Assembly: GCA_018398585.1 (NCBI GenBank)
Contig: JAGTTD010000005.1
Coordinates: forward strand, 38,566,750-38,630,749
Reading direction: 5' to 3'
DNA: 64,000 bases
Origin: Simmondsia chinensis
Lineage: Eukaryota; Streptophyta; Magnoliopsida; Caryophyllales; Simmondsiaceae
Under the pieces are notes generated by a model. That model did not search any database, had not been told where the DNA came from, and was given only the letters and a program-made list of their open reading frames with translations. A program made the position numbers and the translations under genes. Positions within the stretch are counted from its first letter, which is position 1, and the number at the start of each line of letters is the position of its first letter. Below, piece after piece: positions 600-63,735 of the stretch.

Positions 600-1375
600 A
601 TCCATTAATTGTTTAAATAGAATGAGAGGAGCTGTTACCCGAAATAACATGAAATTCAAAAAATATTTTTAAAAAAATATTTTTCGAAATGACATCAGGG
701 TTCATTTACCAGGTACTAATGCAACCGGATTCCAATAGAACTCCGAATTTAAGCATACTTGGGCGAGAGTAGTACCAGGATAAGTGACCTCCTGGGAAGC
801 CCTCGTGTCGCCAACCCTATAAGGTTGGGGGCCCTCGGAAACAGCCTCTCGGCAGGGTTACACCTTGAAGGGGTAAGGTTGTGTACATCCACCCCTCCTA
901 GACCCCGCTTATATGGGAGCCCTTGAGGCACTGGGTCTGTTGTTATTGTTGTTGTTGTATTTTTCGAAATGACACCCATATGGACCAACTGGATGTTACT
1001 TCATGTCTTTTCAATTTTCCTAAATTCTCGTAATCTTTTTAAAGAATACCTTCCCCTTGAGGATGGAGGTGTCCGATTGTGCATGCATATTTTGTGTTTT
1101 TTTTTTTTAAATTAAGTATTTTATATTTGTAAATTACAAATTAAATTGAATTAATTACTAAGTTTTTAATTCAAATTAAATCTATAAATTTATACTTTTC
1201 ATAATCATGTAGTACTAAGAATACCTACCAGCGTATAACCGTGTAAGAATAACTCTAGGAGACGTATTCTTTAAAAAAATTACAAAAATTTAGAAAAAAG
1301 GAAAAAAATGACACCGAGTCTACGTGGGTGCTAATTCAGGAAATATTTTTTGAAAAAACACCGCCAAATAGGCAA
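600..1375. repeat. Inverted-repeat element split by the first 5S-SINE
   Basis: Sequence at about 1008-1050 (TTTTCAATTTTCCTAAATT then TTTTTAAAGAATAC) is the inverted counterpart of 1261-1315 (GTATTCTTTAAAAAAATTAC then AAATTTAG). The flanks at 650-694 and 1335-1370 share AAATATTTTT(C/T)GAAA. This suggests a fold-back MITE that later received the SINE at 698-957. No coding sequence is seen; exact ends are uncertain. Confidence 0.4.
698..957 (+). mobile_element. 5S rRNA-headed SINE, copy 1 (complete, with TSD)
   Basis: Positions 709-811 read as plant 5S rRNA (CCGGATTCCAATAGAACTCC, then TTAAGCATACTTGGGCGAGA, AGTAGTACCAGGATAAGTGACC, CCTGGGAAGCCCTCGTGT, with small differences). A palindromic CCAACCCTATAAGGTTGG and the 3' domain (CTCGGAAACAGCCTCTC, AGACCCCGCTTATATGGGAG, TTGAGGCACTGGGTCTGTTG) follow, ending in TTG repeats. 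The copy is flanked by a 17-bp direct repeat, TATTTTTCGAAATGACA, at 678-694 and 958-974. That is the hallmark of LINE-mediated retrotransposition. It is not a functional 5S gene: the 5S part lacks both terminal stem strands and is fused to the tail. Confidence 0.9.
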
Positions 1376-2867: not shown

Positions 2868-3049
2868 AAAAAGTAATATTCTCCTTTTAAGGTACCCTGA
2901 AGATAGGCTATTTTCGAGAACCCCTAACCCGAGGGGTGCAACACGAGGACTTCCCCGGAGGTCACCCGTCTTGGTACTACTCTTGCCCAAGCACGCTTAA
3001 CTTCGGAGTTCTAATGGGATCCGGTTGCGTATTGGTATCCTCTTAGGTA
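2868..3049 (-). mobile_element. 5S rRNA-headed SINE, copy 2 (variant 3' end, with TSD)
   Basis: On the minus strand it reads GGATACCAATACGCAACCGG, then CCCATTAGAACTCCGAAGTT, AAGCGTGCTTGGGCAAGAGT, CGGGTGACCTCC and CCTCGTGTTGCACCCC: nearly full 5S rRNA. It continues GGTTAGGGGTTCTCGAAAAT and CTTCAGGGTACC, the beginning of the shared 3' domain, but then ends in TTAAAAGGAGAATATTAC plus T's instead of the TTG tail. An 18-bp duplication GGACTATTTTATTAAATA (2850-2867, 3050-3067) shows that this shorter form itself was inserted. Confidence 0.85.
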
Positions 3050-16309: not shown

Positions 16310-16568
16310 TCTTTTCCTACCATTTTGTTTCGGTTTGTGCTATCCCCTGCATATGCGAGAGCCTTTAAGGCACTAGGTTTGTTGTTGCTGTTGTTGTTGT
16401 CGTTGTAGTATTTGGGGTATGGTGGGCGTTAATATATTTTTGTTTCTGGGTGTATTGGGTCGTTAGATACGATTGTCATAGGTGTTTCTTATTATTTTTC
16501 CTTCCCGCAATTTTTGTTTTCAGTTTTTTCATCACGAGTTTTTCTTACTACTTATCGCAAAAAAAAAT
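16310..16568 (+). mobile_element. TTG-tailed SINE 3' domain followed by a LINE 3' end
   Basis: CCCCTGCATATGCGAGAGCC, TTTAAGGCACTAGGTTTGTT and a TTG run (to 16407) are the 3' domain of the 5S-headed SINE family without its head. Directly downstream a T-rich stretch ends CTTATCGCAAAAAAAAATT like the LINE 3' ends in this window. Confidence 0.55.
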
Positions 16569-16786
16569 TAAAAATATCTCATGGTATTACCAACATTGAT
16601 TAGATTAAGAAACATATTAAATTTATACAATAATTTGGATATTTTCATGTCAGATCTTTCTAGAAATTAAAACAATTTTATATATACTCGAAAGTTGTAT
16701 ACATAGAAAAATGTTATTAGCTTATAAAAATGTAAATAATTATACTAATTTTATAATTGATTATTTTTATACTATATTGTTAAGTA

Positions 16787-17007
16787 GGGTTCATTTACCA
16801 TGCACTAATGCAACCGAATCTCATTAGAACTCCGAAGTTAAGCATGCTTGAGCGAGAGTAGTACCAGGATGGGTGACCTCATGGGAAGTTCTCGTGTTGC
16901 CAACTCTATAAGATTACGCCCTGAAGGGGTAAGGCTACGTAAACGCACCCCTCCCAGACCCTGCTTAAGCGGGAGCCCTTGAGGTATTGGGTCTATTGTT
17001 GTTGTTG
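16787..17007 (+). mobile_element. 5S rRNA-headed SINE, copy 3 (short form, with TSD)
   Basis: The 5' end GGGTTCATTTACCATGCACT continues into 5S rRNA: CTCATTAGAACTCCGAAGTT, AAGCATGCTTGAGCGAGAGT, AGTACCAGGATGGGTGACCT, TTCTCGTGTTGCC. The Pol III internal control region is almost intact. The stretch between the palindrome and the GGGGTAAGG word is deleted by about 40 bp compared with copies 1 and 6. It ends TTGAGGTATTGGGTCTATTG plus TTG repeats. A 19-bp duplication with one change, TATA(C/T)TATATTGTTAAGTA, flanks it at 16768-16786 and 17008-17026. Confidence 0.9.
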
Positions 17008-17533: not shown

Positions 17534-18720
17534 CGCCCATTAGATAATTCAAAAAGGTATGAAAGTCAAGTTGGGAGATGGTTCGCATCTGAAATTTTGG
17601 AAGGATATTTGGGTCTAGGACACTTCTCTCCAATCATGATTTCCAGATTTATTTCGAATCTCACTCCAACAGCAGAACTTAGTAAGCCAAATGGGTATGT
17701 GGGATGGGTTAGAGTGGAGATGGTTATTAAACTGGCAGCGCCGATTCTTCAGCAGAGAGGAGGATTAAGTGGCAGAATTCCATGAAGTACTAAATTCAGT
17801 CCAACCTATCAAAGAATCTAGCGACACTGCTTGTTGGCTTCATGATCCATCCTCACTGTACTCCACCAGCTCGTTCACAAAGGTAGTATGGTCCCGAGCA
17901 CTGTCAGTTGTGACTATTGATCACCTAATTTCTGGGGTTTGGAAGGGCTTGGCTCCACCAAAAGTGGAGTTGCTTGTCTGGATGGTTCTCCTAGGGAAAA
18001 TGAACACTAGAGAATGGCTATGGAAGTTGGGTATTGTTGGGGAAGAAGACAAGTGGTGTCTACTTTGTGAAGTGGAGGTAGAAAGTATTGATCATCTATT
18101 CTTGGGTTGCTACCGCTGCTGGTCCGTCTGGGGTAAATGTTTTGAGTGGTGTGGTTTGAAGTGGGTAGTGCCAGAGACGGTAAAGGACCTCTACGAATAA
18201 TGGCTTATGTGCTATGTTGGGGAAAAATTTCAAAAAAAGATTTGGATTACCTTGTTCTTCGTTGTCATTTGGGTCATGTGGAACACTAGGAATAAAGTCG
18301 TCTTTGAAAATGGCCGTTGTATCCAAAGTGAGGTCTTTTGGAGCATTAGAATGAGACCTGGGTTCTAGGTAAAAGCTTGGTGCCAGGAACTTCCATACTC
18401 TCCTAATGATATCGCGAGGAACATTGATTGGATCCGAACCTGGCCCGGAAATAGTATTTCACGGCACTGATCTGCGCTGCTACTGCTGGTACTAATCGCT
18501 GTTCAATGATGGTTGGCCTGACGCTGATATTGCTGTAATAGTATACAATTGTATGGTAGGGGCTAAAGGATGTAACTTTACATCTTACCTTACATTTTGC
18601 GTACATTTTGTTTTGTTGTTGTACCACTGATGTATCACTGGGCCCCAATGGCTAGTTCAGGCCTCGCGAAAGTGAGTGCGCTTGTCTTGTATCACTTCTC
18701 GGCGCTACTTATCAAAAAAA
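17534..18720 (+). mobile_element. 5'-truncated L1-type LINE with zf-RVT domain and 18-bp TSD
   Basis: The coding remnant translates as the C-terminal end of a plant LINE ORF2. At 17769-18200 are a Trp/Pro-rich linker (WKGLAPPKVELLVWM), LGKMNTREWLWKLG and the zinc-binding pattern CLLCE..SIDHLFLGC. Further down is VIWVMWNTRNKVVFENG, followed by a frameshift and stop. The 3' UTR ends CTACTTATCAAAAAAA. ATTGTTGAAC(G/A)TGTTATT at 17516-17533 and 18721-18738 is an 18-bp duplication with one mismatch. The frame breaks near 17760 and 18200, so it is dead. Confidence 0.9.
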
Positions 18721-19779: not shown

Positions 19780-21345
19780 TAAGAAGATAACAGAAACTCA
19801 GAGACTTCTCTTTTGTGTATTCGCTTTTGTTTTCTGATAATTAGACAGTAAACTCTTAATATAAAACTGACGCACTCAACTGAAGTAGAGTTCAAAAAAA
19901 ATCCCACAAAAGCAGGGAAATAAAAGAGAAACATAGCGAAAAAACAAGAAATAAAATACCCTGAAAGCCTCAACACCTACACCTGTGTATGCGCCTTTTG
20001 AAGATAACAGAAGATCAAGGACATTTCCTTTATGTATTCACCTTTTTTCCCCGATATTTAGAGGGGAAATTCTTGATATACGTGTCCATTGAAGTGGAGC
20101 CCGAGAAAACACACAAGTAGAAAGTCAGAAGTAGAATATCCCAAAAATCTAGACACCTACACCTTAAAAAGATAAGAGAAGCTCAAAGACACCTACTTTG
20201 TGTATTTACTTTTTTTCCCCGATATTTAGAGAGGAAATTCTTGATATAAAAACTAACGTGTCTATTGAAGTGGGCCCGAGAAAATACACAAAGGCAAAAA
20301 AAAGATACGGTGCAAAGTCAGAAGCAAAATATCCCGAAAATCTAGACGCCTATAGTTACACCTGCACCTGCACCTTAAGAAGATAATAGAAGCTAAAAGA
20401 TACCTCCTTTGTCGATCTTTTGAGCCTCTTGGAGCCTCTTTAGGCTGCCGTCTTTTGTACTGAGCTTTGCTCAAGAATTATCAAAAAAAAAAAAAAAAGA
20501 TACCTCCTTTGTGCATTCATTTTTTCTTTTTTCTTTTTTTTTTTACCGATAATTGAGGGTAAACTCTCAATATAAAAACTAATGCATCTACCGAAGTGGA
20601 ACCCGAGAAAACACACAAAAGCGAAAAAAAAGATATAGTGGAAAGTCAGAAGCAAAATATCCTAAAAATCTAGACACCTACACCTACACCTTAAGAAGAT
20701 AACAGAAGCTCAAAGATACCTCATTTGTGTATTCACTTTTTTTACCGATAATTACAAAGTAAACTCTCAATAAAAAAAACTGATGCATCTATTAAAGGGG
20801 AACTTGAGAAAACACACAAAAGCAGAAAAAAGAATTAGTAAAAATTCAGAAGCAAAATATCCCCAAAATCTAGACACTTACACCTACACCTTAAGAAGAT
20901 TACAAAAGCTCAAAGACACCCTTTGTGTATTTACTTTTTCTTTTTTTTACTGATAATTAGAAAATAAACTCTCAATATAAAAACTAATGCATCTATTAAA
21001 GTGGAACCCGAGAAAACACATGCAAGTGGAAAAAGGATATAGTAAAAAGTCAGAAGCAAAATATCCCGAAAATCTAGACACCTACACCTACAGCTTAAGA
21101 AGATAACAGAAGCTCAAAGACACCCTTTGTGTATTTACTTTTTCTTTATACCAATAATTAGAAAGTAAACTCTTAATATAAAAACTGATATATCTATTAA
21201 ATTGTAACCCAAAAAAATACATACAGGTAAAAAAAGATACATTAAAAAGTCAAAAGCAAAATATATCAAAATTATAGACAGCTATACCTACACTTACACC
21301 TGTCCCTTAAGAAGATAACGGAAGCTCAAAGACAGTTCCTTTGTG
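19780..21345 (-). repeat. Tandem array of about seven LINE 3'-end units (about 200-215 bp each)
   Basis: The anchor AAGATAACAGAAGCTCAAAG recurs near 19782, 20000, 20166, 20379, 20694, 20895, 21098 and 21310. Between anchors each unit has TTTGTGTATT(C/T)ACTTTTT, GATAATTAGAAAGTAAACTC, TCAATATAAAAACTAATGCA, CCCGAGAAAACACACA, TCAGAAGCAAAATATCCCGA and TCTAGACACCTACACCTACA. On the minus strand this is the LINE 3' UTR ending in TTATC plus A's. The usual spacing is 201-218 bp; one unit is short (166) and one is longer by a 100-bp insertion. No coding function. Confidence 0.85.
20413..20494 (+). mobile_element. 82-bp LINE tail inserted inside the tandem array, with TSD
   Basis: CGATCTTTTGAGCCTCTTGG through TTTGCTCAAGAATTATC and a poly-A run lies in the opposite orientation to the array. 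AAAAGATACCTCCTTTGT is repeated exactly at 20395-20412 and 20495-20512. It is a very short 5'-truncated retrotransposition event that post-dates the array. Confidence 0.8.
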
Positions 21346-21667
21346 TGGATCATTCATATCATCATCACACACACCCTTTCTCTCTCTAGTTTCTCTCTCT
21401 TAACTAGGGCTCCACTATCTCATGATAATAGTAAAATATTATGCAAGAGGGCAGCACCATGCCTAACCCACATTTATTCCATAACAATAACAATGTCTCT
21501 TTTTTATATAATATATTTTATTCATTTATGTGTCTGATAAAAAGGGTGTCAGCTAATTCAGTTCTTAAAATCTTTAAAATATAGTATTCAAGATATGAGA
21601 ATGAATCATATCTTTAGGGTAAGAGTTATGAAATCTGGGTTGGATTGCCCCCTTGTTCAGCTTGTAT

Positions 21668-22575: not shown

Positions 22576-22961
22576 CATCTAAAAAGAAATCTGCGTCTCA
22601 ATCATCATGATGGTTGTCATTATCACCGAATTACAAAGGGTAAAAACGGGTGGTGACAGAAGAGAGTGAGCACACATGGTGCTTTTCTTGCATGAAGTGT
22701 TTCCATGCTCGAAGCTATGTGTGCTCACTCTCTCTCTGTCACCTCGCCCCCTTCTTCTTTCTTTTGTATAGATGCATATATGCTTAAGTGTGTTATCTGC
22801 GATTCTCTATATAATTGTGATTTTTTTGTACTTAAATCGTATATCTATTTTTTTGTATAGATGCATGTCTGTTGTTGTTTTATTATTGCTTACATGTCTG
22901 ATATTACTTTATTTGAATCTTTTATATTGTTCTTTCCTTTTCTTTTCTTTTTAAAGTTGGA

Positions 22962-23068
22962 AGCCTTTCGGAAACAACCTCTTTTAAGTATAGCACCCTG
23001 CAAGGGTAAGAGGGCGTACATCTTACCCCCTCAAATCCTATTGTGGCGGGAGCCTTTGCGAGGAATAG
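22962..23068 (+). mobile_element. Decayed TTG-SINE 3' domain
   Basis: CCTTTCGGAAACAACCTCTT, CACCCTGCAAGGGTAAGAGG, GCGTACATCTTACCCCC and GGCGGGAGCC keep the order of the shared 3' domain; the TTG tail is lost. 22580-22960 holds only a weak inverted pair around GTGAGCACACATGG / AGCTATGTGTGCTCACTC (22665-22735). Confidence 0.5.
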
Positions 23069-24984: not shown

Positions 24985-25126
24985 ACCAGCTTTCCAGGCT
25001 GGGGGTCCTAGGAAACAGCCTCCCTTCATGGTAGCCCCCTGAAGGGAGAAGGCTGCGTACACCTACCCTCCCAGACCCTGCTTAGGCGGAAGCCCTTGGA
25101 GGCACTGGGTTTGTTGTTGTTGTTGA
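24985..25126 (+). mobile_element. TTG-tailed SINE, 3' domain well preserved
   Basis: CCAGGCTGGGGGTCCTAGGA, AACAGCCTCCCTTCATGG, CCTGAAGGGAGAAGGCTGCG, ACCCTCCCAGACCCTGC, TTAGGCGGAAGCCCTTGGAG, GCACTGGGTTTGTTG and a TTG run. No 5S sequence lies upstream; the 5' side (24900-24985) is not recognised. It is either a head-less insertion or one with a different head. Confidence 0.7.
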
Positions 25127-27780: not shown

Positions 27781-27802
27781 ATACTAAGATTTGAACATTT
27801 AT

Positions 27803-28037
27803 ATACCAACACGCCGTCACTAGATTCCATTAGAACTCCGAAGTTAAGCGTGCTTGGGCAAGAGCAGTACCAAGAGGGATGACCTCCTATAAATTCCTCA
27901 CCCTCAAGTTTGAAGGTACTCGGAAATAGTCTCTCTTCAGGGGTAATACCCTGAAGGGAAAAGGTTGCGTACATTTCTCCCCCCCCCCCCCCCCCCCCCC
28001 GACCCTGCGGGAGTTCTTGAGGCACTGGATATGTTGT
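27803..28037 (+). mobile_element. 5S rRNA-headed SINE, copy 4 (diverged, with poly-C)
   Basis: ATACCAACACGCCGTCACTA, TTCCATTAGAACTCCGAAGT, TAAGCGTGCTTGGGCAAGAG and CAGTACCAAGAGGGATGACC are 5S-like. GGTACTCGGAAATAGTCTCT, TACCCTGAAGGGAAAAGGTT, GACCCTGCGGGAG and TTGAGGCACTGGATATGTTG form the tail. The start keeps the older 5S form ATACCA(G)CAC rather than the GGGTTCATTTACC start of copies 1, 3 and 5. Target duplication is unclear. Confidence 0.8.
27979..28000 (+). repeat. Poly-C tract (22 C)
   Basis: The homopolymer replaces the CCACCCCTCCCAGACC-type segment of the SINE 3' domain, so it arose by expansion of an existing C-rich word. Confidence 0.9.
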
Positions 28038-28519
28038 GTATTACATATATGTCTTCATGTTTCAATGTATACTGTAACATATATCGATGTTTGAAAAATA
28101 TCTATCAGGTATCATATGTTGAATTTCGATAGTTTGTCACGGGAAATGATGAAACTGAACAAGATCTCAACAATATTTATGTATCCTGCATTAGATTCAA
28201 GGGTTTCTAGCCAAAAAGTATTGACAAGGCACATTATTTCGGAAAGGTCCCCAGCTGCCATTGGAATTTGGAAAATTTTTATCATGAGATGGTGAATTTT
28301 CACTTTAGAATACTCATATGTCTCATACATATTATTTTATTCAAGTTTACATCATATTGTTCGGCTGAAAATTAGCTTAATTATGACACTAATACAAAGA
28401 GTTCGGACAAAGAGTACCCAGATAGTAAAATTTTTAAATTTTATTATGCTTTGTCAGTGTAGATATTAGGATGTCGGGATACATAGATGATAAATGCTCA
28501 AGTATCAGGGTATCTAAGT

Positions 28520-29110
28520 GATAAATGCAACAACCACTTTTGCAGAATTCTCGCCCCCTTATGGGTTATGTGGAAGAGTCGTAACAAAATGGTCTTTCAG
28601 GGGTTAATGCCTGATCCATGCCATGGTCCTGTTGGAAGCGCAAGTGAAAAGTGGAAGTTGCTTAATTAGGTAGATCGGTGCCAAACTTATCCTTAGGAAA
28701 CTAGACATAGGAACATAGGAACATATCCAGTGCCTCAAGGGCTCCCGCTTACGCAGGGTCTGAGGGGGCGGATGTACGCAGCCTTCCCCCTTCAGGGTGT
28801 TAACCTGAAGAGAGACTGTTTCCCAGCCTTAGGAAACTAGACAATCAGGTAAATAACATGAATGTGTGTAGCGGACTTCACAAGAAATTGATTGGGTGAA
28901 TCTGAATATCGATGGATTTAGGAGGTGTTTACGACGAAGATGGTCAGTGTATTATTCATCATATTGGAGTTCTGTATGAGATGAGATTCGTAAGGATGAG
29001 CTATACTCAAGCTCTAGCTACACACCTGACTTAATATTTCTTAGCTCAAAAGAAGTGGGGAGCTTGAATGGTTATTGTTCCAGAGAGGTGATCACAAAAA
29101 ACGATAAGAG
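28520..29110 (+). pseudogene. Decayed LINE ORF2 C-terminus and RNase H, split by a SINE
   Basis: At 28550-28600 the frame reads PLWVMWKSRNKMVFQG, the usual LINE C-terminal motif. After the SINE, 28880-28930 gives DWVNLNIDGF, which resembles the start of the RNase H domain of plant LINEs. Stops and frameshifts are frequent. The RNase H assignment is by motif only. Confidence 0.6.
28708..28826 (-). mobile_element. Head-less TTG-type SINE with 17-bp TSD and variant tail
   Basis: On the minus strand: GCTGGGAAACAGTCTCTCTT, CACCCTGAAGGGGGAAGGCT, GCGTACATCCGCCCCCTCAG, ACCCTGCGTAAGCGGGAGCC, TTGAGGCACTGGATATG, then TTCCTATGTTCCTA in place of TTG repeats. CCTTAGGAAACTAGACA is repeated exactly at 28691-28707 and 28827-28843. 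Only 119 bp long and without 5S or tRNA head, yet bounded by a clean duplication. Confidence 0.85.
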
Positions 29111-30727: not shown

Positions 30728-30863
30728 TCTCAGGTTAGGGGTTCTCGAAAATGACCTTTCGTTAGGGTATTAGCTTGAAAGGGTAAGGGTGCGTACATTC
30801 CACCCCTCACAGACCCTGCTTACATGGAAGCCCTTGAGGCACTGGGTCTATTGTTGTTGTTGT
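30728..30863 (+). mobile_element. Head-less TTG-tailed SINE with 16-bp TSD
   Basis: TCTCAGGTTAGGGGTTCTCG, AAAATGACCTTTCGTTAGGG, GGTGCGTACATTCCACCCCT, CACAGACCCTGCTTACATGG, AAGCCCTTGAGGCACTGGGT and TTG repeats. TGATTAGAAATTTATT is exact at 30712-30727 and 30864-30879. The start GGTTAGGGGTTCTCGAAAA equals the segment just after the 5S part in copy 2, so this copy begins where the 5S head ends. Confidence 0.9.
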
Positions 30864-36058: not shown

Positions 36059-36520
36059 TAAGACTAGTAAGAATCCCACATAAGAGTTGTAAGAGTGAAA
36101 GATCAATGTGTAAGTCTAATGAACTACTCTACCTAATGCCAATTAGTTTTCGGATGAAACCCTACTTGAGTTTATACGTGGATCTCATCTATACTAACTT
36201 CATGAGTCGGGTCTACAGATCTGGTGAAATTTAACAACAACAACAACAGACCCAATGCCTCAAGGGCTCCCGTCTAAGTGGGGTCCGAGGGGATGGATGT
36301 ATGCAACCTTACCCCTTCAGGGTGTAACCCTGCCGAGAGATTGTTTCCAATGACCTCCAACCTTATAGGGTTGGCAACACGAGGACTTCTCATGAGATCA
36401 CCCATCTTGGTACTACTCTCGCCCAAGCACGCTTAATTTCGGAGTTCTAATGGGATCCGATGTATTAGTGCCTGATAAATGAACCCTATCTGGTGAAATT
36501 TAACATCATATACAATGATA
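36059..36520 (+). repeat. About 200-bp dispersed repeat, copy C, split by a 5S-SINE
   Basis: AGAATCCCACATAAGAGTTG, TAAGAGTGAAAGATCAATGT, CTACTCTACCTAATGCCAAT and GTGGATCTCATCTATACTAA match copies A and B. The repeat resumes after the SINE with TGGTGAAATTTAACATCATA. It is thus older than the 5S-SINE. Confidence 0.7.
36237..36486 (-). mobile_element. 5S rRNA-headed SINE, copy 5 (complete, with TSD)
   Basis: On the minus strand: GGGTTCATTTATCAGGCACT, CATCGGATCCCATTAGAACT, CCGAAATTAAGCGTGCTTGG, GCGAGAGTAGTACCAAGATG, GGTGATCTCATGAGAAGTCC, TCGTGTTGCCAACCCTATAA, GGAAACAATCTCTCGGCAGG, then TTGAGGCATTGGGTCTGTTG. ATCTGGTGAAATTTAACA is repeated at 36219-36236 and 36488-36505. It lies 220 bp upstream of the proline-rich protein start codon, in opposite orientation. 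Confidence 0.92.
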
Positions 36521-41002: not shown

Positions 41003-41472
41003 AGGTGTGTGTATAAGATTTGAGTTGAGCACAAGCTCGTCAAGCTCGGGCAAAGCTTGTCAATATGTAGCTCGGGTTGCGCTCAAAGCTTGCTGAGTTT
41101 CGAAACTCCGAGCTTGAACTTAGCTCTTCATAGGATCGGCCTCGACTTGGCTCGATTCAGCCCGAATCCAACTCACCAAGTTTCAAGCTAATGCCCATTT
41201 AAGCTCTATCTAATCTAGTTTACACTCGAGCTCAGCTCATATACGCTCATACTAGGCTTGATGGGGCAAATTTACGCTAATAAGTTGTATTGAAATAGCC
41301 TCATTTACTCCCATTCAGGCACGCAAGACTATAAATTCAAGCTTCACTTAGACTTCAGAATCATTTTATTTAACTAAATGAGCTGACTTACCCAACTTGG
41401 CTCAAACACAAAACGAACCGAGTTTTTCAAACTTTACGATGAGCCAGCTCACGAGCCCTCACTTGCACCCCA
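41003..41472. mobile_element. GAGCTC-rich hAT-like MITE abutting and entering the SCL23-like CDS
   Basis: The interior matches the family, and its right end (CTTTACGATGAGCCAGCTCA, CGAGCCCTCACTTGCACCCC) matches 50995-51039 (CTTTACGATGAGCCAGCTCG, then CTCTCATTGACACCCCTA). The element end therefore lies at about 41472, inside the open frame of the GRAS gene. Target duplication is not visible. Confidence 0.8.
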
Positions 41473-42647
41473 AGCTCCCAAGCAGAGGCAGTGAGCAAAG
41501 ACAAATCCTTCCACCCCAACTTCAACCTCCCATTCTCCTCCACCAAAGTGTACCCTTTCCATGGCCCCATCCCCAGCAACAACCCCGCTTGTGCAGCCGG
41601 ACTACCTGCCAGCGAAAACGGGCAAAAACCGACCTGACCCAACTCATCCCCCCATCTCCCCACCGACTCAAAATCACCACCGTCCATCCTCCTCTTACAC
41701 CCACCAACGGCCAGGATGTTCCTGATCTCGCATCCCAACAGCTCTTGCTCTATTATATGCCGTTGGATGCACTCCTTTTCTAGTCCTTCCCCTACTGCAT
41801 CAAACAAGGCTGAGTAGTAATGTAAAGCATCTACGAATCTCGCCAAAAACGATGTCGTTTTAGTCAAGTCCTGTTCCACCATTGTTATCACCTTCGGTTT
41901 TATAGATTTCAATGCCTTCAGAGTCCCAAGATCCGACCCGGTTATGTCATACAACCAGTGGTGCATACAATGTACTACAATAGCCTCACTGGGGTCAACC
42001 CGAAGTCTAGCCGGGTCAGCTAAATTCCCTATTTTACCCTCCAAAGGGAAGAACTCAAAGGGTAAACTTAGAGAAGTGGCGAACTCCGCGAGTCTTCTCC
42101 CCGTTTGGAGAAGAAGATCCATGGATGGTCCGAACCCAGTGACCCGAATTGAACTGGGTCGATTACTCCTTGATGCAAGGATGTGGAACAATCCTGGCCA
42201 TTGAAGACCCTGCATGATATCCAAATCAATGACGTGGATTAAATCCTCACCGTCCAATGCTTCATAGATGGCTTGGTTTGCAGTGAAGTGAGAGAATTTG
42301 ATCAAGGGTGTGATTGAATTGTACAACTGCAAGGCGCCATGAAATCTGCGCAAGTGGGTTGCGCTTAAAGTGAGAGAATCGAGGACCCCATTTGGAGGAA
42401 CAATGGAGAGGAGAGAGAAGAAGACGCGGTGGCGGAGGGCGTCGGAGAAGTAGGCGGCGACGCGGTCGGCGGGGGAGCCGAAGGGGGAGGAGAGTGCAGC
42501 GAGCGCCGGGAGGAGGTCGGCGGCGCCGGTGAGGTTGTCAGTTGACACGCAGTCGGCGCACCGGAGGACGAGCCGGAGAAGCTCGAGGGCGCGGCTTGTG
42601 TCGGCGGCAGGGTCATCTGCTGCCCCGGCGGGGGAGGTGGTTGACAT
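41427..42647 (-). CDS. SCL23: GRAS-family transcription factor, SCL23-like
   Basis: A 406-residue intronless protein of the SCARECROW/SCL23 branch of plant GRAS regulators, nuclear proteins that control endodermis and bundle-sheath fate together with SCARECROW and SHORT-ROOT in Arabidopsis. Domains in order: Leu-rich region I (about 19-80, ALELLRLVLRCADCVSTDNL), VHIID motif (136-150, LIHVIDLDIMQGLQW), Leu-rich II (SLSLPFEFFPLEGKIGNL, about 192-210), PFYRE-like region (about 220-290) with VEQDL and HYYSALFDA, RVER-like region (QELLGCEIRNILAVGG, 301-316) and the SAW motif (GRLKLGWKDLSLLTASAW, 373-390). The length fits SCL23 rather than SCARECROW, which has a long N-terminal extension. The N-terminus is short and GC-rich. 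After SAW the family normally ends within about ten residues; here ELGVQVRARELAHRKV follows, encoded by the adjoining MITE. Whether the product is active cannot be judged, but all core motifs are intact. Confidence 0.9.
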   Translation of the reverse strand: MSTTSPAGAADDPAADTSRALELLRLVLRCADCVSTDNLTGAADLLPALAALSSPFGSPADRVAAYFSDALRHRVFFSLLSIVPPNGVLDSLTLSATHLRRFHGALQLYNSITPLIKFSHFTANQAIYEALDGEDLIHVIDLDIMQGLQWPGLFHILASRSNRPSSIRVTGFGPSMDLLLQTGRRLAEFATSLSLPFEFFPLEGKIGNLADPARLRVDPSEAIVVHCMHHWLYDITGSDLGTLKALKSIKPKVITMVEQDLTKTTSFLARFVDALHYYSALFDAVGEGLEKECIQRHIIEQELLGCEIRNILAVGGCKRRMDGGDFESVGRWGDELGQVGFCPFSLAGSPAAQAGLLLGMGPWKGYTLVEENGRLKLGWKDLSLLTASAWELGVQVRARELAHRKV

Positions 42648-43057
42648 GAGGGGTGGGGATGAAAAGAGGGGGAGTGCTAGGACAGAGAGAAGGGAGATGG
42701 TGCATGATTGAACAGGGGAAAGGTGAAGGTCTTTTTGGAAAAAGATTATAATTTTAAGATAATTTTTTTATTTTTATTGTTAGTAAGTTATATTATTGGT
42801 CTGATAGTAATATAATAACAACTTCTATTTGGGAAAAATCTAGTTGAATTTTAGTGATACGAATTAAATCAATTAATTCAACTTATAGAGAGTAGTATAT
42901 TTGTGTATAACTCATATAACATGGATAAATATATAGAAATTTACAAGTAAAGGTAAAATTTATACCGTAAGAGAGAACGGAGAGGGAAATTGAGAGAGAA
43001 AGAGGGCCAAAAATAGAGAGAAGAGACACTTAAATGATTCATTCTACACTCCTTCTT
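42648..43057 (-). promoter_or_regulatory. 5' region of the SCL23-like gene
   Basis: About 410 bp of AT-rich DNA separates the start codon from the next MITE. On the minus strand, AAATTATAATCTTTTTCC near 42740-42760 could supply a TATA element. No other motif can be argued. Confidence 0.3.
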
Positions 43058-44526: not shown

Positions 44527-44652
44527 TCAGGATGGGGGTCCTCGGAAACAGTCTATCTTTCACCCGGAAGGGGGAAGGCTGCATACATTCAACCCCCAGA
44601 CCCTGCTTCGTGCGGGAACCCCTGTGGCACCGGGACTGTTGTTATTGTATTT
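44527..44652 (+). mobile_element. Head-less TTG-tailed SINE
   Basis: TTCAGGATGGGGGTCCTCGG, AAACAGTCTATCTTTCACCC, GGAAGGGGGAAGGCTGCATA, CCCAGACCCTGCTTCGTGCG, GGCACCGGGACTGTTGTTAT. The flanks ATTTGACGACT (44512) and ATTTGACAACT (44650) may be a short diverged duplication. No 5S head. Confidence 0.7.
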
Positions 44653-46430: not shown

Positions 46431-46451
46431 ACAACAAAAACAACTACAGTC

Positions 46452-46568
46452 TCAGTGCTATAAGGACTCCCGCATGGCCAGGGCCTGGGGGTGGATGTAC
46501 GCAACCTTATCCCTTTAGGGTGCTACCCTCAAGAGAGACTGTTTTCGATAACCCCCAACCTGAGGAGC
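46452..46568 (-). mobile_element. Head-less TTG-type SINE, minus strand
   Basis: On the minus strand: GGTTGGGGGTTATCGAAAAC, AGTCTCTCTTGAGGGTAGCA, CCCTAAAGGGATAAGGTTGC, GTACATCCACCCCCAGGCCC, GGGAGTCCTTATAGCACTGA, ending in GTTGTTTTTGTTGTATC. It shares the full order of the 3' domain. No 5S head is visible. Confidence 0.7.
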
Positions 46569-46893
46569 GTGTCATCATGTAACCATAAAGACTGAAAGCA
46601 TGAAAACAACTTAGTATTAGATCAATACATAACACAAGCCAAGTGTACGAAGCAAAACTCAAGGACAATTTTGGGAAAACATGGAGGGAGGTGACTGCAG
46701 ACAAATAGTCCACTAGTCAAGACACTGATACACAAATAGAAGCTCCAATACGAGTTTGCCAAAGAAGAAGTCAAGCCACCTAGAAACACTAGTGCAAGCA
46801 GTCAAAGGTACTCTGCTCTAAGCCGCTACATCGGCTACCCTATGCTAGCTCTCCACCGAGTTCTATCTAAGGCCATCTCCTCTCGAAGGGATG

Positions 46894-51049: not shown

Positions 51050-52430
51050 ATTATCTCTTTCCTGCTCACTAGTCTGCTACTCTAACCGAGTCCTTGCACT
51101 TTCTACTGTCAACCCTATATTGGTGGATGATGCGTATATTCACTGGATGCTGAGATTGAAGAAACAAGGGAAAATTAGAGCAACAATAAGAAACCGCACA
51201 TAGAATTTACGTGGTCAATTGGAAATCCGACCTACATCCATGGACGATTATGACTAGGGAAATCACTATGAATTCGAAGATTAGAGCCATCTTAGACACA
51301 TTTTAAAGCACCTTTGTATAACCAAAAACCTAGACCACTACCCCGAATTGAACTCTCAATAATATAGGTTATAATTATTAAAACCCATATGTATGTGCCT
51401 ATATGGTGAGTTATCTAATAAACTAGACGAACTTTTGGCCTCCTATAAAAATATTAGTGCCTGTGAAGAATCAAGTTAAGAATGAAAAGCATGCTTTAGC
51501 CTACTATTTGCATTGCTATTTATAAAGAGTACAAAGTATTTGTAATGTTCTTGCTTTTTAGGGTTGGAACAATTCGAAAACAGTTTCCCTTCAGGGTACC
51601 ACCCTGTAGAGGTAAGACTGTGTAACTTTCACCCTTCCCAAACCCTACCTTGGCGATAGGCATAGATTTGTTGTTGTACAGAGTACTGGAAATATAAAAA
51701 CACCCTTAATCTTGATAGGAAAAGGTCTAGACCTAGATAGAGAGATGCAAACAGGAATACTGATCTAGATCTATATCTTGATCTAGATATATGTATATAG
51801 ATAGTTGGATATATCAGTAATAGTGCCTTATATTTCTTCTCTCTTCCTCCCGTTCCACAACCCTAGGCCCCGTCCTCTATGAACGCAATATATGGATACC
51901 TTTGTCTTAAAAGAAACTTTCATTGCTTATCTTCTTCATCCATATAATTTGGCAAAAGATTGTAGCAAGCAGTTTATTTCTGAACACCGGTATAAGGTGT
52001 GAACAAAGCAGACAAAATTTGCAGAACCCACAAACATCCAAAAGAGTCGAGCAAAATCACACGGAGAAGACGAAATGCATCACCCGAACCAAGCTGAACT
52101 ATGCATCCGTTTAGAATGAAAGAGCCCTTCACATTTTAACTTCATGAGAAATGTTCACGACTCCAAGGATCATAATAAACCGCATCCTTAGGAGCTGAAA
52201 TGAAACAACAAAAATTACAACAATTTGGGCTTAATTATCACAAGCTAAGCTCAGCTACATAGATCAAAGTACATTACTGCATTCTTATCATGTATATCTT
52301 CGTTACACTCCTTTGTAAACAAGATTGTCAGCAAGAGCTAAAAGCTTCGTATGAATTCATCCCAGTTTTGTGGCAGTGTACTGTATCATATCTATATTAT
52401 TCATCAGTGAAGCTAATTAATTATCAGATA
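51050..52430. other. Spacer with a SINE 3' domain at 51558-51678
   Basis: 51558-51678 (+) has AGGGTTGGAACAATTCGAAA, ACAGTTTCCCTTCAGGGTAC, CACCCTGTAGAGGTAAGACT, GTGTAACTTTCACCC and TTGTTGTTG: the shared 3' domain without a head. A CTAGAT-rich simple stretch lies at 51755-51800. 51900-52430 has no recognisable gene. Confidence 0.5.
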
Positions 52431-52439
52431 ATGTCGGTT

Positions 52440-53165
52440 TGAGCCAAGTATCATTTGTCAGCAGTGGATACAAATTTCATGACTCGTGTCGTCTCCTCCC
52501 TTCTTGGATAGATTGGAAAATTCAAGCAACTACCAGTCAAAGATCAGTTGATGCACGTGCTTGGGACGTGCCACCACTGGGGCATTTCAAATGGAATGTT
52601 GGTGGAGCTTCAATAGGCAAGCCTGGAAGAGCAAGCGTCAGAGGTGCTCTTAGAGACCGCAAGAGCGAGTTTCACAGTACATTAACAGTTTTAACTCGAA
52701 TTATGCATGTATTTCAACCAACCTTCAGGTATTGGAGATTGTTTACGTTAAAAAAGTCCAGAGTGGATAATCATAGAGTCCGATTCTAATCAACAAGTTG
52801 AATGCATGGATATGATGTCTAGCTTTGATGACCTTTCAATAGTTTGTATCATAACAACAACAGACTCAGTGCCTCAAGGGCTCATGCCTAAGCGGGGTTT
52901 GGGAGGGGTGGATGTACGCAGCCTTACTCCATCAGGGTATAACTCTGCCGAGAGGCTGTTTCGGAGGACCTCCAACCTTATAAGGTTGGCAACACGAGGA
53001 CTTCCCAAGAGGTCATCTATCTTGGTACTACTTTTGCCCAAGCACGCTCAATTTCGGAGTCATAATGGGATCTGGTTGCATTAGTACCCGGTAAATGAAC
53101 CTTTATAGTTTGTATCATAAAGGAGACAAATTGAGGAGCAGATATACTAGCTAAGCAAGGCGAGA
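52440..53165 (+). pseudogene. LINE-type RNase H fossil, split by a 5S-SINE
   Basis: The frame at 52439-52789 contains WDVPPLGHFKWNVGGASIGK and GRASVRGALRDRKSEF, the usual opening of the RNase H domain of plant LINE polyproteins (PPxGxxKxNxDGA.. pattern with D changed). Beyond the SINE, ADILAKQG at about 53138 is the conserved end of that domain. Frameshifts and a G-for-D change at the first catalytic position mark it as inactive. It is not a host RNase H gene. Confidence 0.7.
52855..53104 (-). mobile_element. 5S rRNA-headed SINE, copy 6 (complete, with TSD)
   Basis: On the minus strand: GGTTCATTTACCGGGTACTA, ATGCAACCAGATCCCATTAT, GACTCCGAAATTGAGCGTGC, TTGGGCAAAAGTAGTACCAA, GACCTCTTGGGAAGTCCTCG, the palindrome CCAACCTTATAAGGTTGG, CTCCGAAACAGCCTCTCGGC, GGCTGCGTACATCCACCCCT and TTGAGGCACTGAGTCTGTTG. 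The exact 16-bp duplication ATAGTTTGTATCATAA (52839-52854, 53105-53120) interrupts the RNase H fossil. Confidence 0.93.
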
Positions 53166-56275: not shown

Positions 56276-56572
56276 TTTAATTGTCAATTAGATACAAATT
56301 GAAGTGGGTGTGAGACAGGTATGGTGGGTATAAATGAGACAAGGTAGATATAGTATAACATTACACTTGTACTCGCCTCATACAAACAATAACAACCCAG
56401 TGGTTCACAAAGGTTCTCGCGAAAGCATGGTCTGGGAGGGTATGTTGTATGCAATCTTACCCTACAAAGTATTACTCTGTAAAGAGATTATTATTAATAT
56501 CCAATCGATACTCGCTACTCAGCTCACTTGCACTTCATACCCATCCAAATAAAACGAATACCAACAAATAAT
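55920..56572. repeat. Decayed TAGGGATGG-family MITE with a nested SINE 3' domain
   Basis: TATCTATACCTGTCCAGTTA, GCGGGTATCCAAAGGG, ATACCCATCCCAGTATATAT and CTCGCTACTCAGCTCACTTG are degraded arms of the CGGGTA element. At 56385-56490 (minus strand) AGAGTAATACTTTGTAGGGT, AAGATTGCATACAACATACC, CTCCCAGACC, CACTGGGTTGTTATTG is a TTG-SINE 3' domain inserted in it. An AT microsatellite lies at 56243-56271. Confidence 0.55.
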
Positions 56573-57276: not shown

Positions 57277-57640
57277 CCTGTCAAATACTCGATTACCCAT
57301 TAATTATCTAACCCAAATTTGTACCTCTAACCCTATTTCATTGCTTTTTATTTCATCGGTAATAACGAAGAAGCTTCTCAAAAGTGGAAATCGCCAAAAT
57401 CTGTAAGAATCTGTGTCTGTTACTCTCATGCGATGCAAGAGCACATTAAAGTTATCTTTTTTTTGCTTTTGAGTTGATATTATCATCACAAAAAATGATG
57501 TGAAACTACAATCTTATTGAGGCAATAACAATAACATTTCCCCTTTGATTTTGTTTGCTGTAGTGTGAGATTTTGATTGCAATAGGGAATATGTATGTGA
57601 AAGTAGATTGATTTTACTGGTGGATTGTGCTTTGTTTTGG

Positions 57641-60600
57641 ATGGAGAAGAAGATGTTACCGAAGTTAGAATTTGGGAACCCAGATGAGAATGATTCAAAT
57701 AATGGGCATTTGTTGCGTGACATTGAAGAGATAAGTAAAGCCCTTTATTTGAAAAAGAACCCAAAAAATGTTTTGATTTCTTCATCCAATTTTGGGTTCA
57801 GATCAGCAGAAAAATCCCATTTAGATGGTTTCAGATCAAGCCCAAGTTTGAGTTCGAGTTCAAGTTTAGTTGATGATAAATGGTTGCCTAAGGAAAAGAA
57901 ACAGTCAATTTGGACGTGGAAACCTCTCAAGGCATTATCCCATATAAGGCATAAAAAGTTCAGTTGTTCTTTCTTTTGCCATGTTCATTCCATTCAGAAT
58001 TTGCCTTCCGATTTCGATGGTCTTAGTATGAGTGTGCACTGGAAGAAGGGTGATATTCTGAAAACTCTTCCGATGAAAGTTGCTAATGGATTGGCTGAAT
58101 TTGAGGAAACATTGATGAAAATATGTACAGTTTATGGTACTAAGAATGGGCCCAAGAATTTTGTCAAGTATGATCCTAAGCTCTTTTTGCTTTACCCTTC
58201 TGTGATTGGAGCAGGAGAATTTGATATTGGGAAGCATTGGATCGATTTGACGAGGTTGCTTCCTCTTACAATAGATGAGTTGGAGGAAGATAGGTGCTCC
58301 GGGAAGTGGTCAACGAGCTTTAAGCTTGCGGGCGAGGCCAAAGGTGCTATATTGCATGTTAGTTTTGGATTTGTCGTATTGAAGGATGGTGTGTTTGAAT
58401 TACGCAATGATGTGAAATTACTCCATTTCGTGAACTCGAAAAGTAATGAGTTCAGCACATCAAACGGTGACACCGATTCTATCTATGGAAAGAGAAATAG
58501 CTCGCTAAGGCGGGTGGGGAGTGTTCCAAGCCGCTTACACAATGCTTCTCTTGATACATCTCAGTGCCTAGATGTGAAGACTCTTCCTCAAGGTTGGCTT
58601 AATCGTAGCTGTGATTTTTCTAGTGCTGTTGATCTCTTATATCGAAAGCTTGAACAGGAGAACATTGGTGGGGCAGTAAAATTGGATTCCTGTAAATTGG
58701 TGTCTGACTCGTTCCGTAGTTCTTTAAAAGATGTCGTTGTGAATGAATCTGACGATGATGATGATTTTACAGTGATCGAGGATGGGGTAGAATTAGAATG
58801 CTCCTCAAAGGAAGAGTTGAAATTAGAACAATCTTCAGTGAGTGGTCTTGATGTCTCTTCTGTAGAAGTAATTGACATTAAACAGATCTTTAAGGATGAA
58901 GGGGTTGCATCAGATGAGGAGACAAAGCTTAATGTGAAAGGTTCGGTCGCTGGTGGTTATATGAATGATAGTCAAACGAATAATCACGGTTATGTGTGCA
59001 AAATGGAATCAAATATGGAAGAATCTGTCCTGGATTTTCATGACATGATCATTTCAGAACTTTCAGAATTGGAGTTGCCAATGGATGAGTGTGAATTTAT
59101 CAGAAACAAAATCCCCGAGGACCTTGAAATAAATTCTCAAGGAATCACAATGGCGAGATCATTGAGCTTAAATGACAGAGAAAATGCCGTTGCAGATGAG
59201 TTTCTTCGTCTCGTGCTACATGACAATAGTCCATCTCCCTCATCTCCCAATAGTGATTCAGAGTCCCCAAGAGAGCGTCTTCTAAAAGAGTTCGAAAAGG
59301 ATGTGATTGCAAATGGCAGCTTCCCTTTTGATTGTGATGCACAAGCAGAGGCTGAATCTGAATCTGATCACACGGTTTCAGGTGTCTCATTTTCAAAGGA
59401 TTTTTTTATGGGAGTTGAACTTTCTCCTATCCTCCTATCTGAGCAAAGTGCTAATCCGCCATCAAAAACTAAAACAAAGGCAAAAATGCTTGAACGCTTA
59501 GAGACCCAGTCACTAATGCAAAGATGGGGTTTGAATGAGGATGCCTTTCAGAGATCCCCGAAAAACGCCACTGGTGGATTTGGGAGTCCAATTTTTGTTC
59601 CTCTTAGTGAACCAATGGAGTTGCCACCTCTTGGAGAGGGATTAGGCTCACTTCTTTCAACGAAGGATGGAGGTCTTTTGCGGTCCATGAGTTCCAGGCT
59701 CTTCAGAAACGCGAAGAACGGTGGTACTCTGATTATGCAAGCTTCTAAACCTGTTGTGCTACCTGCACAGATGGGTTCTTGTGTCATGGAGATATTACAG
59801 TGTATGGCGTCAACTGGCGTGGAACAATTGTCTGAGCAAGTAAAGAAGCTGATGCCTTTGCAAGAGGTTTCTGGTAAGATAGTGCAGCAACTTGTATTGG
59901 AGGGTTCAACTGGTGTAAATTTGTCAGAAAGGTATCTGAACTGGTTACTTTTTCCCACTTCATTAGTTAAAAGGGCTTTTTTTTTGTTTTTAACAAAAAT
60001 CACCTTTATAAGTAGTCATTTTTCACTTAACCACCACAACTTTTCAGTTGTTTCAGAAAACCACCTTCAAAAGTATAAATATTATCAATCAATTGCCTAC
60101 ATTAATGCCATTAGGATTCCATCTGAGTTACACATGTTATTTTGCTTAGGTGATGTATAAAATTGGAGAAAACATAGAACTTGTTGGTTTTAGCTCAATT
60201 GATAAAGGATTACACTACTAAGGTGGCTCTATGCGCATGTTCGAATCTTTGTGCACACAAGCATCTAGTATGATTCGAACCTGTACATACAGACCATTTA
60301 AGGGTATATTGCTTTATTAAGTGAGCTCATACCTACATGTGTGCTTATCTTCCCTTTTTGGTATAAGAAAATGAAAAATTACACATCTAACCTCCACAAA
60401 AAAACTAATGGTGTCATTGTAGGTGGCTGATAGAAAAAATTTAAACTTTTGAATATGGTTTTCTGGAAAATTGGAAAGTTGTGGTCTTTTAAGTGAAACA
60501 TGTCTACTTCTAGAAGTGCTTTTATGTAAAAATTCCCAGTTAAAATTCAATTTTAGAATTTACTTGTTAATATGCTTTAGTTCTTTGCTGTGCAGATCTC

Positions 60601-61583
60601 CTTTTCCATGGCATGAAGGCGATATCAAGTCAGAATCCAAGGGATCTTCGCATGTTCCAAGCTGTAGCAATGCTGATTGTAGTTCCTCATGCACTGACAA
60701 GCAAGAACAGTACAAGTCCATCAAAGATCTCACTCCTTTTGTGATGGACAATATCGAAGTCCTTTTAATTGAAGGTCTAAGGATACAATCTGACACGTCT
60801 GATCTAGAGGCTCCTTCAAGCATTAATCTTAATTCTATAAGTAGAGTACAGAGGATTATGGATTCTGATACATCTTTGGAACCGGATGTTAGCAGTAACG
60901 GTGATAGAATTGAAACATTGATGGATCTTTCTATATCACTAGATGAGTGGCTGAGGCTGGATTCTGGGGATTTTGATGGTGAAGATAATATCGGAGACCG
61001 TATCGTAAAAGTCCTAGCAGCGCATCATGGCAAAACGAGTGTTTCTTCTAATAGAAACTTCACGGGAGATAAAGATGGTGAAAATGAATCGGGTTTGTTG
61101 GGAAACGAACTAACAATAGCTTTAAGAATGCAGCTTAGAGACCCACATCGAAATTATGAACTAGTTGGTGCCCCAATGCTTGCTTTCATCGTCGTAGAGC
61201 GGCTCTACATAGAGGAGAATCAATGTAAATGCCCCGAGACTCAAGATGAAATTGCTACAAAGCGCATTAACAGTTTCAAAATTCATGAAGCTCATGTTGC
61301 AGGATTGAATTCAGGGCCTACTAATGGAGATTTTTGGGCCACCCAAAGACAACAACAATCAGGATCAAGATGGTTGCTTGCTAGTGGGATGAACCAGAAC
61401 AGTAGTTGTCAGAATTCAAACTCAAAGGCGATATCTCGACTATCCTCGAAAGTACTGAGGAAATCTCGATATGGGCACCGTTTATGGAGCATTTCTAGTG
61501 GTTTCAACGGCGCTGGAGCTGAATGGAACAACTCGATTGAACACGAAGCTCTTATTCGGAATCCGGACATTGTTTATTTCTGA
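57641..61583 (+). CDS. PLASTID MOVEMENT IMPAIRED 1-RELATED-type protein (NT-C2 domain), two exons
   Basis: Exons are 57641-59931 and 60596-61583 (2291 and 988 nt). The donor AAAG/GTATCT and the acceptor TGTGCAG/ATCT keep the frame, giving 1092 residues. The ATG at 57641 is preferred because the frame upstream has only TTG before a stop. Features: a SIWTWKPLKALSHIRHKKF lead-in and NT-C2 (EEIG1/EHBP1-type) domain at about 100-250 (FSCSFFCHVHSIQNLPSDFD, GLAEFEETL); an acidic linker (DDDDDFTVIEDGVEL) before about 400; a conserved block near 690-765 (LIMQASKPVVLPAQMGS, ILQCMASTGVEQLSEQVKKL, PLQEVSGKIVQQ); and in exon 2 IEVLLIEGLRIQSDTSDLEAP, LRMQLRDPHRNYELVGAPML and RNPDIV at the end. PMI1 family proteins act in the cytoplasm and plasma-membrane periphery in actin-dependent chloroplast and nuclear positioning. 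This longer form matches the PMIR group rather than PMI1 itself (family knowledge). No frame break was found. Confidence 0.9.
59963..60547. repeat. Fold-back MITE filling the intron of the PMI1-related gene
   Basis: The left arm (AACAAAAATCACCTTTATAA, TTTTTCACTTAACCACCACA, ACTTTTCAGTTGTTTCAGAA, AACCACC) is the inverted form of the right arm (GGTGGCTGATAGAAAAAATT, GGTTTTCTGGAAAATTGGAA, AGTTGTGGTCTTTTAAGTGA). It makes up about 88 percent of the 664-bp intron. A half copy lies at 7440-7560. Confidence 0.75.
60185..60312 (+). mobile_element. Possible tRNA-derived SINE nested in the intronic MITE
   Basis: GGTTTTAGCTCAATTGATAA is box-A-like and ATGTTCGAATCTTTG is box-B-like, about 35 bp apart, in a tRNA-Lys-like order, followed by CAGACCATTTAAGG. 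No cloverleaf closes, so it is not a tRNA gene. Confidence 0.45.
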
Positions 61584-62699: not shown

Positions 62700-63735
62700 A
62701 TTGTCAGGGTCGGCCATGTGGTGCTCACTCAGCGCCAACTCCATGGGATTGGTAGGGGCTTGATGAATTTAACATGGCATTAAAGCGCGTTGTTGATAAT
62801 TGGCAATTGCTTAACACATCGAGAGCTTTTGGGCTTAGGCCTTCCTCGACTCAAGGGGTACACTTGATCGATTGGGCACGTGGAGGCTATGTCTTAGCGT
62901 CCGGTTGGGAGAAGATTAACTAAAATTACTTTCTACGGTTCCCGGCAGGGATGCGTACATTTCACCCCTAACCTTGCTTTGGCGTGAGCCTTCGAGCACT
63001 AAATTTGGCAATGTTGGTTCCTAGGCCACGGCTTCCTCTTAGGGTTTCAGATAGAGTTCCTATTGATTGAGTGAGTTGTTTATCCACTAAACAACCTTTT
63101 GAGAAGACCGAGACAAGAATCACTAGCTACATACCCTTCTGCACTTTGTCTCAAGATCAAAGATCTCTCCACTTGTTGGGCTTTCTGTGTGGAGCCTCAT
63201 TTTATGCTATTATGGGCTTAGTCCATGGAGCGAAAATGGACTGGCAGATGCCCTTTGACTCTCTATGGGCGTCCGGTGGCGAAGCCCCGGGGAAAAATCA
63301 TTTGGGCCTTGATTTGGGCCCAGATGGAGGCCCAAGCCCATTTTGGCAATTTTAGTTGGAGAAATTAGAGCTTCCTTTTGTGCGCTTATTTAAATCCTGT
63401 TTAGGATTTGAAAGAGTAGAACGAAATTGGAAGAACTTTCTGTAAAACTTCCAAAGCAGTAAGCTATCCCAGCAACTTCATGGACACGGGCATTTTAAGC
63501 CGACCTAGGTAAATCTTGCGTGTTTGATTTTATGCTTTAGTTAAATCTTTCGCTGTGTTTAGCGATTGCATTGGCTAACAATATCAAGGAGTCGAATCAT
63601 TAAATTTTTTCTTATAAATAAATATAGAATAAATTTCAGTTAAATAAAACAATATAGTACACTCCAGTATGAACAATGTCAATTATGTAATAGTTGGTTG
63701 GATATGTAGCGGGCATTGTGTTAGGTAAAGAATTT
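62700..63735. other. Spacer with SINE-tail and LTR-like traces
   Basis: 62935-63010 has TACGGTTCCCGGCAGGGATG, CGTACATTTCACCCC and TTGGCGTGAGCC, a decayed TTG-SINE 3' domain. 63400-63590 (GAAAGAGTAGAACGAAATTG, CATTTTAAGCCGACCTAGGT, CGCTGTGTTTAGCGATTGCA) resembles the end of an LTR but has no primer site I can confirm. The open frame at 63071-63355 has no recognisable domain. Confidence 0.3.

Follow-up and report, generated by a model that had tools for sequence, protein, structure and literature searches.

A dispersed repeat family with a 5S rRNA head and a TTG-ended tail, a likely SINE, in the genome of Simmondsia chinensis

The window analysed here is the whole stretch C22:38566750-38630749 (64 kb) of the Simmondsia chinensis assembly. 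It holds six copies of an element that begins with 5S rRNA sequence. In a tree of 39 rows, the SCARECROW-like 23 gene at 41430-42677 (-) clusters with Opuntia and Spinacia (support 100/99); its branch is long and was flagged as unsure by the tree program. A PMI1-related gene lies at 57569-61583 (+), and its part at 57668-60154 has its best named matches in Spinacia, Chenopodium, Ancistrocladus, Bienertia and Rumex, at 47-50% identity. The best spinach matches of the two genes, SOVF_107360 and SOVF_107400, carry near-consecutive locus tags, which suggests conserved gene order. A LINE remnant with a zf-RVT domain lies at 17769-18197 (+) and is not RTE-like as far as seen, and a cluster of diverged direct repeats, ~65-83% alike, extends over 19780-21346.

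In all six copies a 5S-derived head is joined to a common tail that is not 5S. The sequence-only reading had proposed this fusion, and Rfam together with the identity among sister copies bears it out in six of six. Five of the six sites exceed the gathering score of the Rfam 5S_rRNA model when the whole window is searched. The copy at 698..957 (+; Rfam match 696-816, 46.8 bits) consists of a head at ~698-818 and a tail at ~819-957 with TTG repeats at its end, and is flanked by the 17-bp target duplication TATTTTTCGAAATGACA. At 2868..3049 (-; Rfam match 2943-3038, 58.2 bits) the 3' half of the tail is missing, and a T-run end abuts an 18-bp duplication. The copy at 16787..17007 (+; 16784-16905, 59.4 bits) has a 19-bp duplication with one mismatch and, according to the alignment, lacks ~33 nt from the start of the tail. 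The copy at 27803..28042 (+; 27797-27910, 42.4 bits) has no target duplication that could be found at its edges, and the copy at 36233..36486 (-; 36369-36490, 64.4 bits; the copy at 36237 below) has one of 18 bp. At the sixth site, 52853..53104 (-; the copy at 52855 below), the 5S part at 52984-53104 reaches 31.9 bits, below the cut-off of 38, with E values of 5.7e-05 when searched alone and 0.012 in the whole window; along its length this copy shares 84-85% identity with those at 698 and 36237, and it has a 16-bp duplication. Duplications of 16-19 bp thus accompany five of the six copies, as had been claimed, against a baseline in which the 95% level of random sites is 8-10 and a few random draws on repeats scored higher. 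The six heads align with a reference 5S sequence at scores of 104-160, the maximum for shuffled heads (200 per head) being 24, and chance resemblance is therefore excluded. The head had been put at ~100 nt and proves longer, since the whole 5S (nt 1 to ~119) is present in the copies at 698, 16787, 36237 and 52855.

The claim that the six copies form one family holds for their common tail and has to be divided at the 5' end. Subfamily A, to which the copies at 698, 16787, 36237 and 52855 belong, starts with GGGTTCATTTACC and ends in TTG repeats, (TTG)n. The copies at 2868 and 27803 align with a second subfamily, B, which starts with ACCWAAGAGGGYACCAAC, differs from A in this changed 5' end and mostly has a T-run at its end. 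Four B copies outside the window end in a T-run (L012, L018, L040, L045); in the window it follows the shortened tail of the copy at 2868 and was not seen at 27803. Isolated A and B heads are both predicted to fold with a closed 5S-like helix I made of different base pairs. In the full-length A RNA the predicted probability of helix I is 0.01, and another hairpin wins. Runs of more than 20 C occur inside the tail in the B copies at 27803-28042 and L012:377-595.

A 256-nt consensus of the four subfamily A window copies was searched against the assembly (831,394,711 bases, i.e. 831 Mb, in 35 contigs) and gave 6,364 first-look candidates, 40 of which were scored. These best 40 of 6,364 are near full length and 92-95% identical to the consensus, and they lie on 21 of the 35 contigs. 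The same 5S/tail junction is found in 40 of 41 match rows, the remaining row being partial. The 30 top-scoring loci, which include the window copy at 698 (locus L012), were fetched, and this selection is biased to young copies because it was made by score. In 23 of the 30 fetched copies a duplication (score >=11) is present and the 5' end lies no more than 3 nt from 5S +1; no such duplication was found in the other seven. The duplications of the genome copies vary from 11 to 21 bp and, in the same 23 copies, abut the 5S +1 end on one side and the TTG end on the other, so as to enclose head and tail together. Recurrence of the fusion, which the sequence-only reading had named as support, is thereby established; 5S and tail do not stand in separate contexts without a shared junction, though the tail does occur alone as well. 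In the prokaryote and viral contigs scanned, junction and tail have 0 matches. Seventeen 10-kb stretches taken at round coordinates contained three copies with 5S sequence (L045, L054, L057) and six tail-only copies, one of which is a short fragment. Extrapolation from these three copies gives ~15,000 5S-bearing copies, with a Poisson range of ~3,000-43,000; with six copies in 64 kb, the window is several times as dense as this sample.

The head was compared with the 5S genes of the host, as had been proposed, and the consensus head aligns with them end to end. All eight main-array 5S genes fetched are identical. The consensus, with the 5S at its 5' end, has boxes A, IE and C at their customary limits, which is the arrangement of SINE3-class elements; box A and IE match the host gene exactly, and box C differs at two sites. 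There, A and T are found in each of the three host 5S types examined, G and C in subfamily A and also in the reference 5S sequence used for the shuffle test, and A and C in subfamily B. The A head was probably captured before the present 5S genes took their form, or from a variant of them. The single copies (four in the window, L054 and L057) differ from the consensus by 7-12%, and 105 of their 130 changes are transitions. Differing positions number 54 of 565 in the heads and 75 of 709 in the tails; with rates this similar, head and tail of inserted copies decay at about the same pace, and the promoter is retained in the consensus.

The possibility that the 5S lies inside the LTR of a Cassandra-type retrotransposon, or in solo LTRs of one, was considered and rejected as highly improbable. 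Cassandra, with 5S promoters in its LTRs, is widespread in plants (PMC10853983, PMC10886601), and the present family does share with it, as a plant retroelement, an internal promoter of 5S type (PMC10853983), but here the 5S is terminal and without LTR, beginning no more than 3 nt from the duplication in 23 of the 30 fetched copies, and the element is therefore not Cassandra. In the fetched loci the copies are not flanked, as they would be in an LTR pair, by a second equally oriented 5S unit, and none was seen paired around a primer binding site; most further copies within 1.5 kb consist of the tail alone, and the 3' end is (TTG)n. In addition, LTR elements typically make target duplications of 5 bp, against 11-21 bp here. 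With the 5S at the extreme 5' end, the reservation of the sequence-only reading that the fusion might sit in a Cassandra LTR falls away. Less credible still is a chance neighbourhood of 5S pseudogenes or orphons with an unrelated repeat: 5S orphons occur in many genomes and one near-native 5S was found outside the arrays, on contig C29, but this candidate is refuted by the junction common to 40 of 41 rows and by the shuffle scores, and the duplications enclose head and tail jointly.

The element is ~255 nt long, of which the tail makes up ~135 nt with TTG repeats at the 3' end. Alignment of a TS-type tail of tobacco with this tail scores 59, the maximum in 500 shuffles being 21. The TS SINE pairs with an RTE-clade LINE (Ohshima 2013, PMC3747384), and the RTE LINEs of plants terminate in (TTG)n or (TTGATG)n (PMC3747384). 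Since the scan for reverse transcriptase motifs in the window and the fetched loci returned eight frames, mostly Copia-like and none RTE-like, mobilisation by an RTE-clade LINE is something that we infer, from the TTG end and the fit of the TS-type tobacco tail. The RTE model leaves the T-run with which B copies mostly end unexplained. RNAalifold applied to 14 tails gave nine pairs, three of them with a two-sided change, a weak result with an unfavourable covariation term.

Taken as a repeat of ~255 nt dispersed over 21 contigs with target duplications of variable length, and with a head derived from a Pol III gene, 5S rRNA, according to both Rfam and the alignment with the host gene, the family shows these two features of a SINE. 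Given the observed fusion, duplications, consensus promoter boxes, presence on at least 21 contigs and even decay, we consider it likely that this is a dispersed 5S-headed SINE family whose members would be transcribed by RNA polymerase III and reverse-transcribed by a predicted RTE-clade LINE. RNA polymerase III would read the element from the 5S internal promoter, giving transcripts predicted to begin at GGGTTCATTT, and the LINE would recognise the tail and reverse-transcribe the RNA into new sites.

Plant SINEs derive from tRNAs (PMC9033089), and SINEs with 5S promoters are cited for animals (PMC10853983); these sources agree with the earlier statement that nearly all known plant SINEs have tRNA heads and that 5S-headed ones are best known from animals. 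SINEs with 5S heads are reported in animals and in Aspergillus, and those with RTE tails are known in animals (PMC3747384). AnnoSINE admits a 5S class, and the part of its description consulted names no plant case. Among the papers listed by the literature searches, none described a plant 5S-headed SINE. A close design is that of the springhare SINE Ped-1, whose 5S head is followed by an RTE-clade LINE tail (PMC3747384); Ped-1, however, belongs to a rodent and has a BovB tail, whereas here the 5S is that of a plant, the TTG-ended tail is a plant one and the RTE partner is a predicted one. HaSE3 and other SINE3 families of moths also have a 5S head with boxes A, IE and C, and HaSE3 has its body and tail in common with HaSE1, which is tRNA-headed and has a tail similar to that of an RTE LINE (PMC3272025). 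Unlike in the insect, no tRNA-headed sister was found in the window here, ARAGORN (bacterial code) returning 0 tRNA genes. The tobacco TS SINE has the same (TTG)n end and shares ~100 nt with an RTE LINE (PMC3747384); a tail of TS type aligns with the tail here, but TS has a tRNA head. The Angio-SINE superfamily is defined by a 37-bp 3' Angio-domain (PMC9033089). A 5S-headed family numbering thousands of candidates in one plant genome would demonstrate that plants, too, have made the change to a 5S-type promoter that is known from animals and a fungus. As the parent 5S genes, two subfamilies, headless copies and one apparent fusion are found together in one genome, the acquisition of a SINE head becomes directly testable.

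The headless copies, in which the tail stands alone, number ten in the window (nhmmer, profile of four A copies, E <= 2.3e-4). Those that start at the 5S/tail junction include 30730..30862 (+), with a 16-bp duplication 4 nt upstream of the tail; 24991..25125 (+), with no duplication found; 46436..46572 (-), with none at the element edges; 44527..44648 (+), with a weak duplication of 10/11 bases; and two old copies, 22949..23065 (+) and 51556..51676 (+). A B-type copy at 28718..28830 (-) has its 5' end within the tail and a 17-bp duplication. A shorter copy lies at 56386..56492 (-), a tail 3' end only at 16344..16392 (+) and a diverged fragment at 62944..63006 (+; 15.1 bits, E 2.3e-4). In seven of the ten the start falls on the junction (model position 114-124) and unrelated DNA lies upstream; the upstream DNA of six tail-only copies showed no kinship with each other or with 5S. 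The segment 25126-25200 (-), directly after the copy at 24991-25125, carries what we take to be a resemblance to a tRNA-type A and B box. A miR156 precursor (22653-22742, +; Rfam 91 bits) lies ~200 nt upstream of the headless tail at 22949-23065.

With A and B profiles together, 67 copies were found in 331.6 kb (window and loci), 62 of which were kept after edge and 3'-end filters, the copy at 698 being counted twice (window and L012). A duplication score >=11 is reached by 39 of the 62. Nine of these 39 are 5' truncated; in five of the nine the truncation point falls at model position 113-123, with the junction at ~120. Fourteen more tail-only rows lack a confident duplication. For truncation at the junction, the seven copies scored with the A model give a binomial P of 1.4e-5, for an interval chosen after looking. 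The two tail-only duplications of 16-17 bp are like those of headed copies, which points to one machinery acting on the tail.

Stalling of the reverse transcriptase at the 5S domain and a separate headless RTE derivative both fit these copies, and the tail tree decides for neither. The second reading has nearly even odds of being right: tail-only copies would be a separate bipartite non-autonomous RTE, made of the 5' and 3' ends of a LINE, in front of which the 5S was added later. A bipartite-LINE model was reportedly proposed by Kojima in 2018. The start of seven of the ten window copies at 114-124, with unrelated DNA upstream, agrees with it, as does a tree that places no tail-only copy inside the headed ones with support, but the headed copies do not form one clade in that tree either (AU p 0.105). 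Also against it, some tail-only copies have B-typical letters (the one at 28715 ends like B), the start of the one at 30732 resembles the headed copy at 2868, and the few nucleotides between duplication and tail resemble the 3' end of 5S. How a head might be added is illustrated at C29:34924734, where a full 5S, carrying three changes relative to the main array, stands before a short linker and a B copy. The 9-bp duplication TATATTAAA lies outside the 5S and B pair, on both sides. The simplest reading is a single insertion in which the template was switched from SINE RNA to 5S rRNA. Two adjacent insertions, a 5S retrocopy and then a B copy, are rather unlikely. In their favour, this is a single case with a TA microsatellite on its upstream side and a duplication of just 9 bp; against them, the duplication encloses the pair, a search around the B copy by itself found no flanking repeat of more than 5 nt, and 9-nt edge matches occur in 36 of 200,000 sampled site pairs (six of 5,440 AT-rich ones).

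Extended from this one locus to the family, the template-switch reading would allow a 5S head to be added when the reverse transcriptase passes from SINE RNA to 5S rRNA during insertion. The boldest version, which we offer tentatively and hold to be doubtful, is that this is the first plant 5S-headed SINE family, that its reverse transcriptase still makes new heads by jumping onto 5S rRNA, and that folded 5S may stall the same enzyme to leave headless copies. Mammalian LINE-1/5S rRNA chimeras likewise combine 5S and a retroelement in one insertion, with 7-17 bp duplications in 20 of 27 (PMC13174262). In those chimeras the 5S is typically truncated and antisense, whereas at C29 it is full length, in sense orientation and joined to a SINE.
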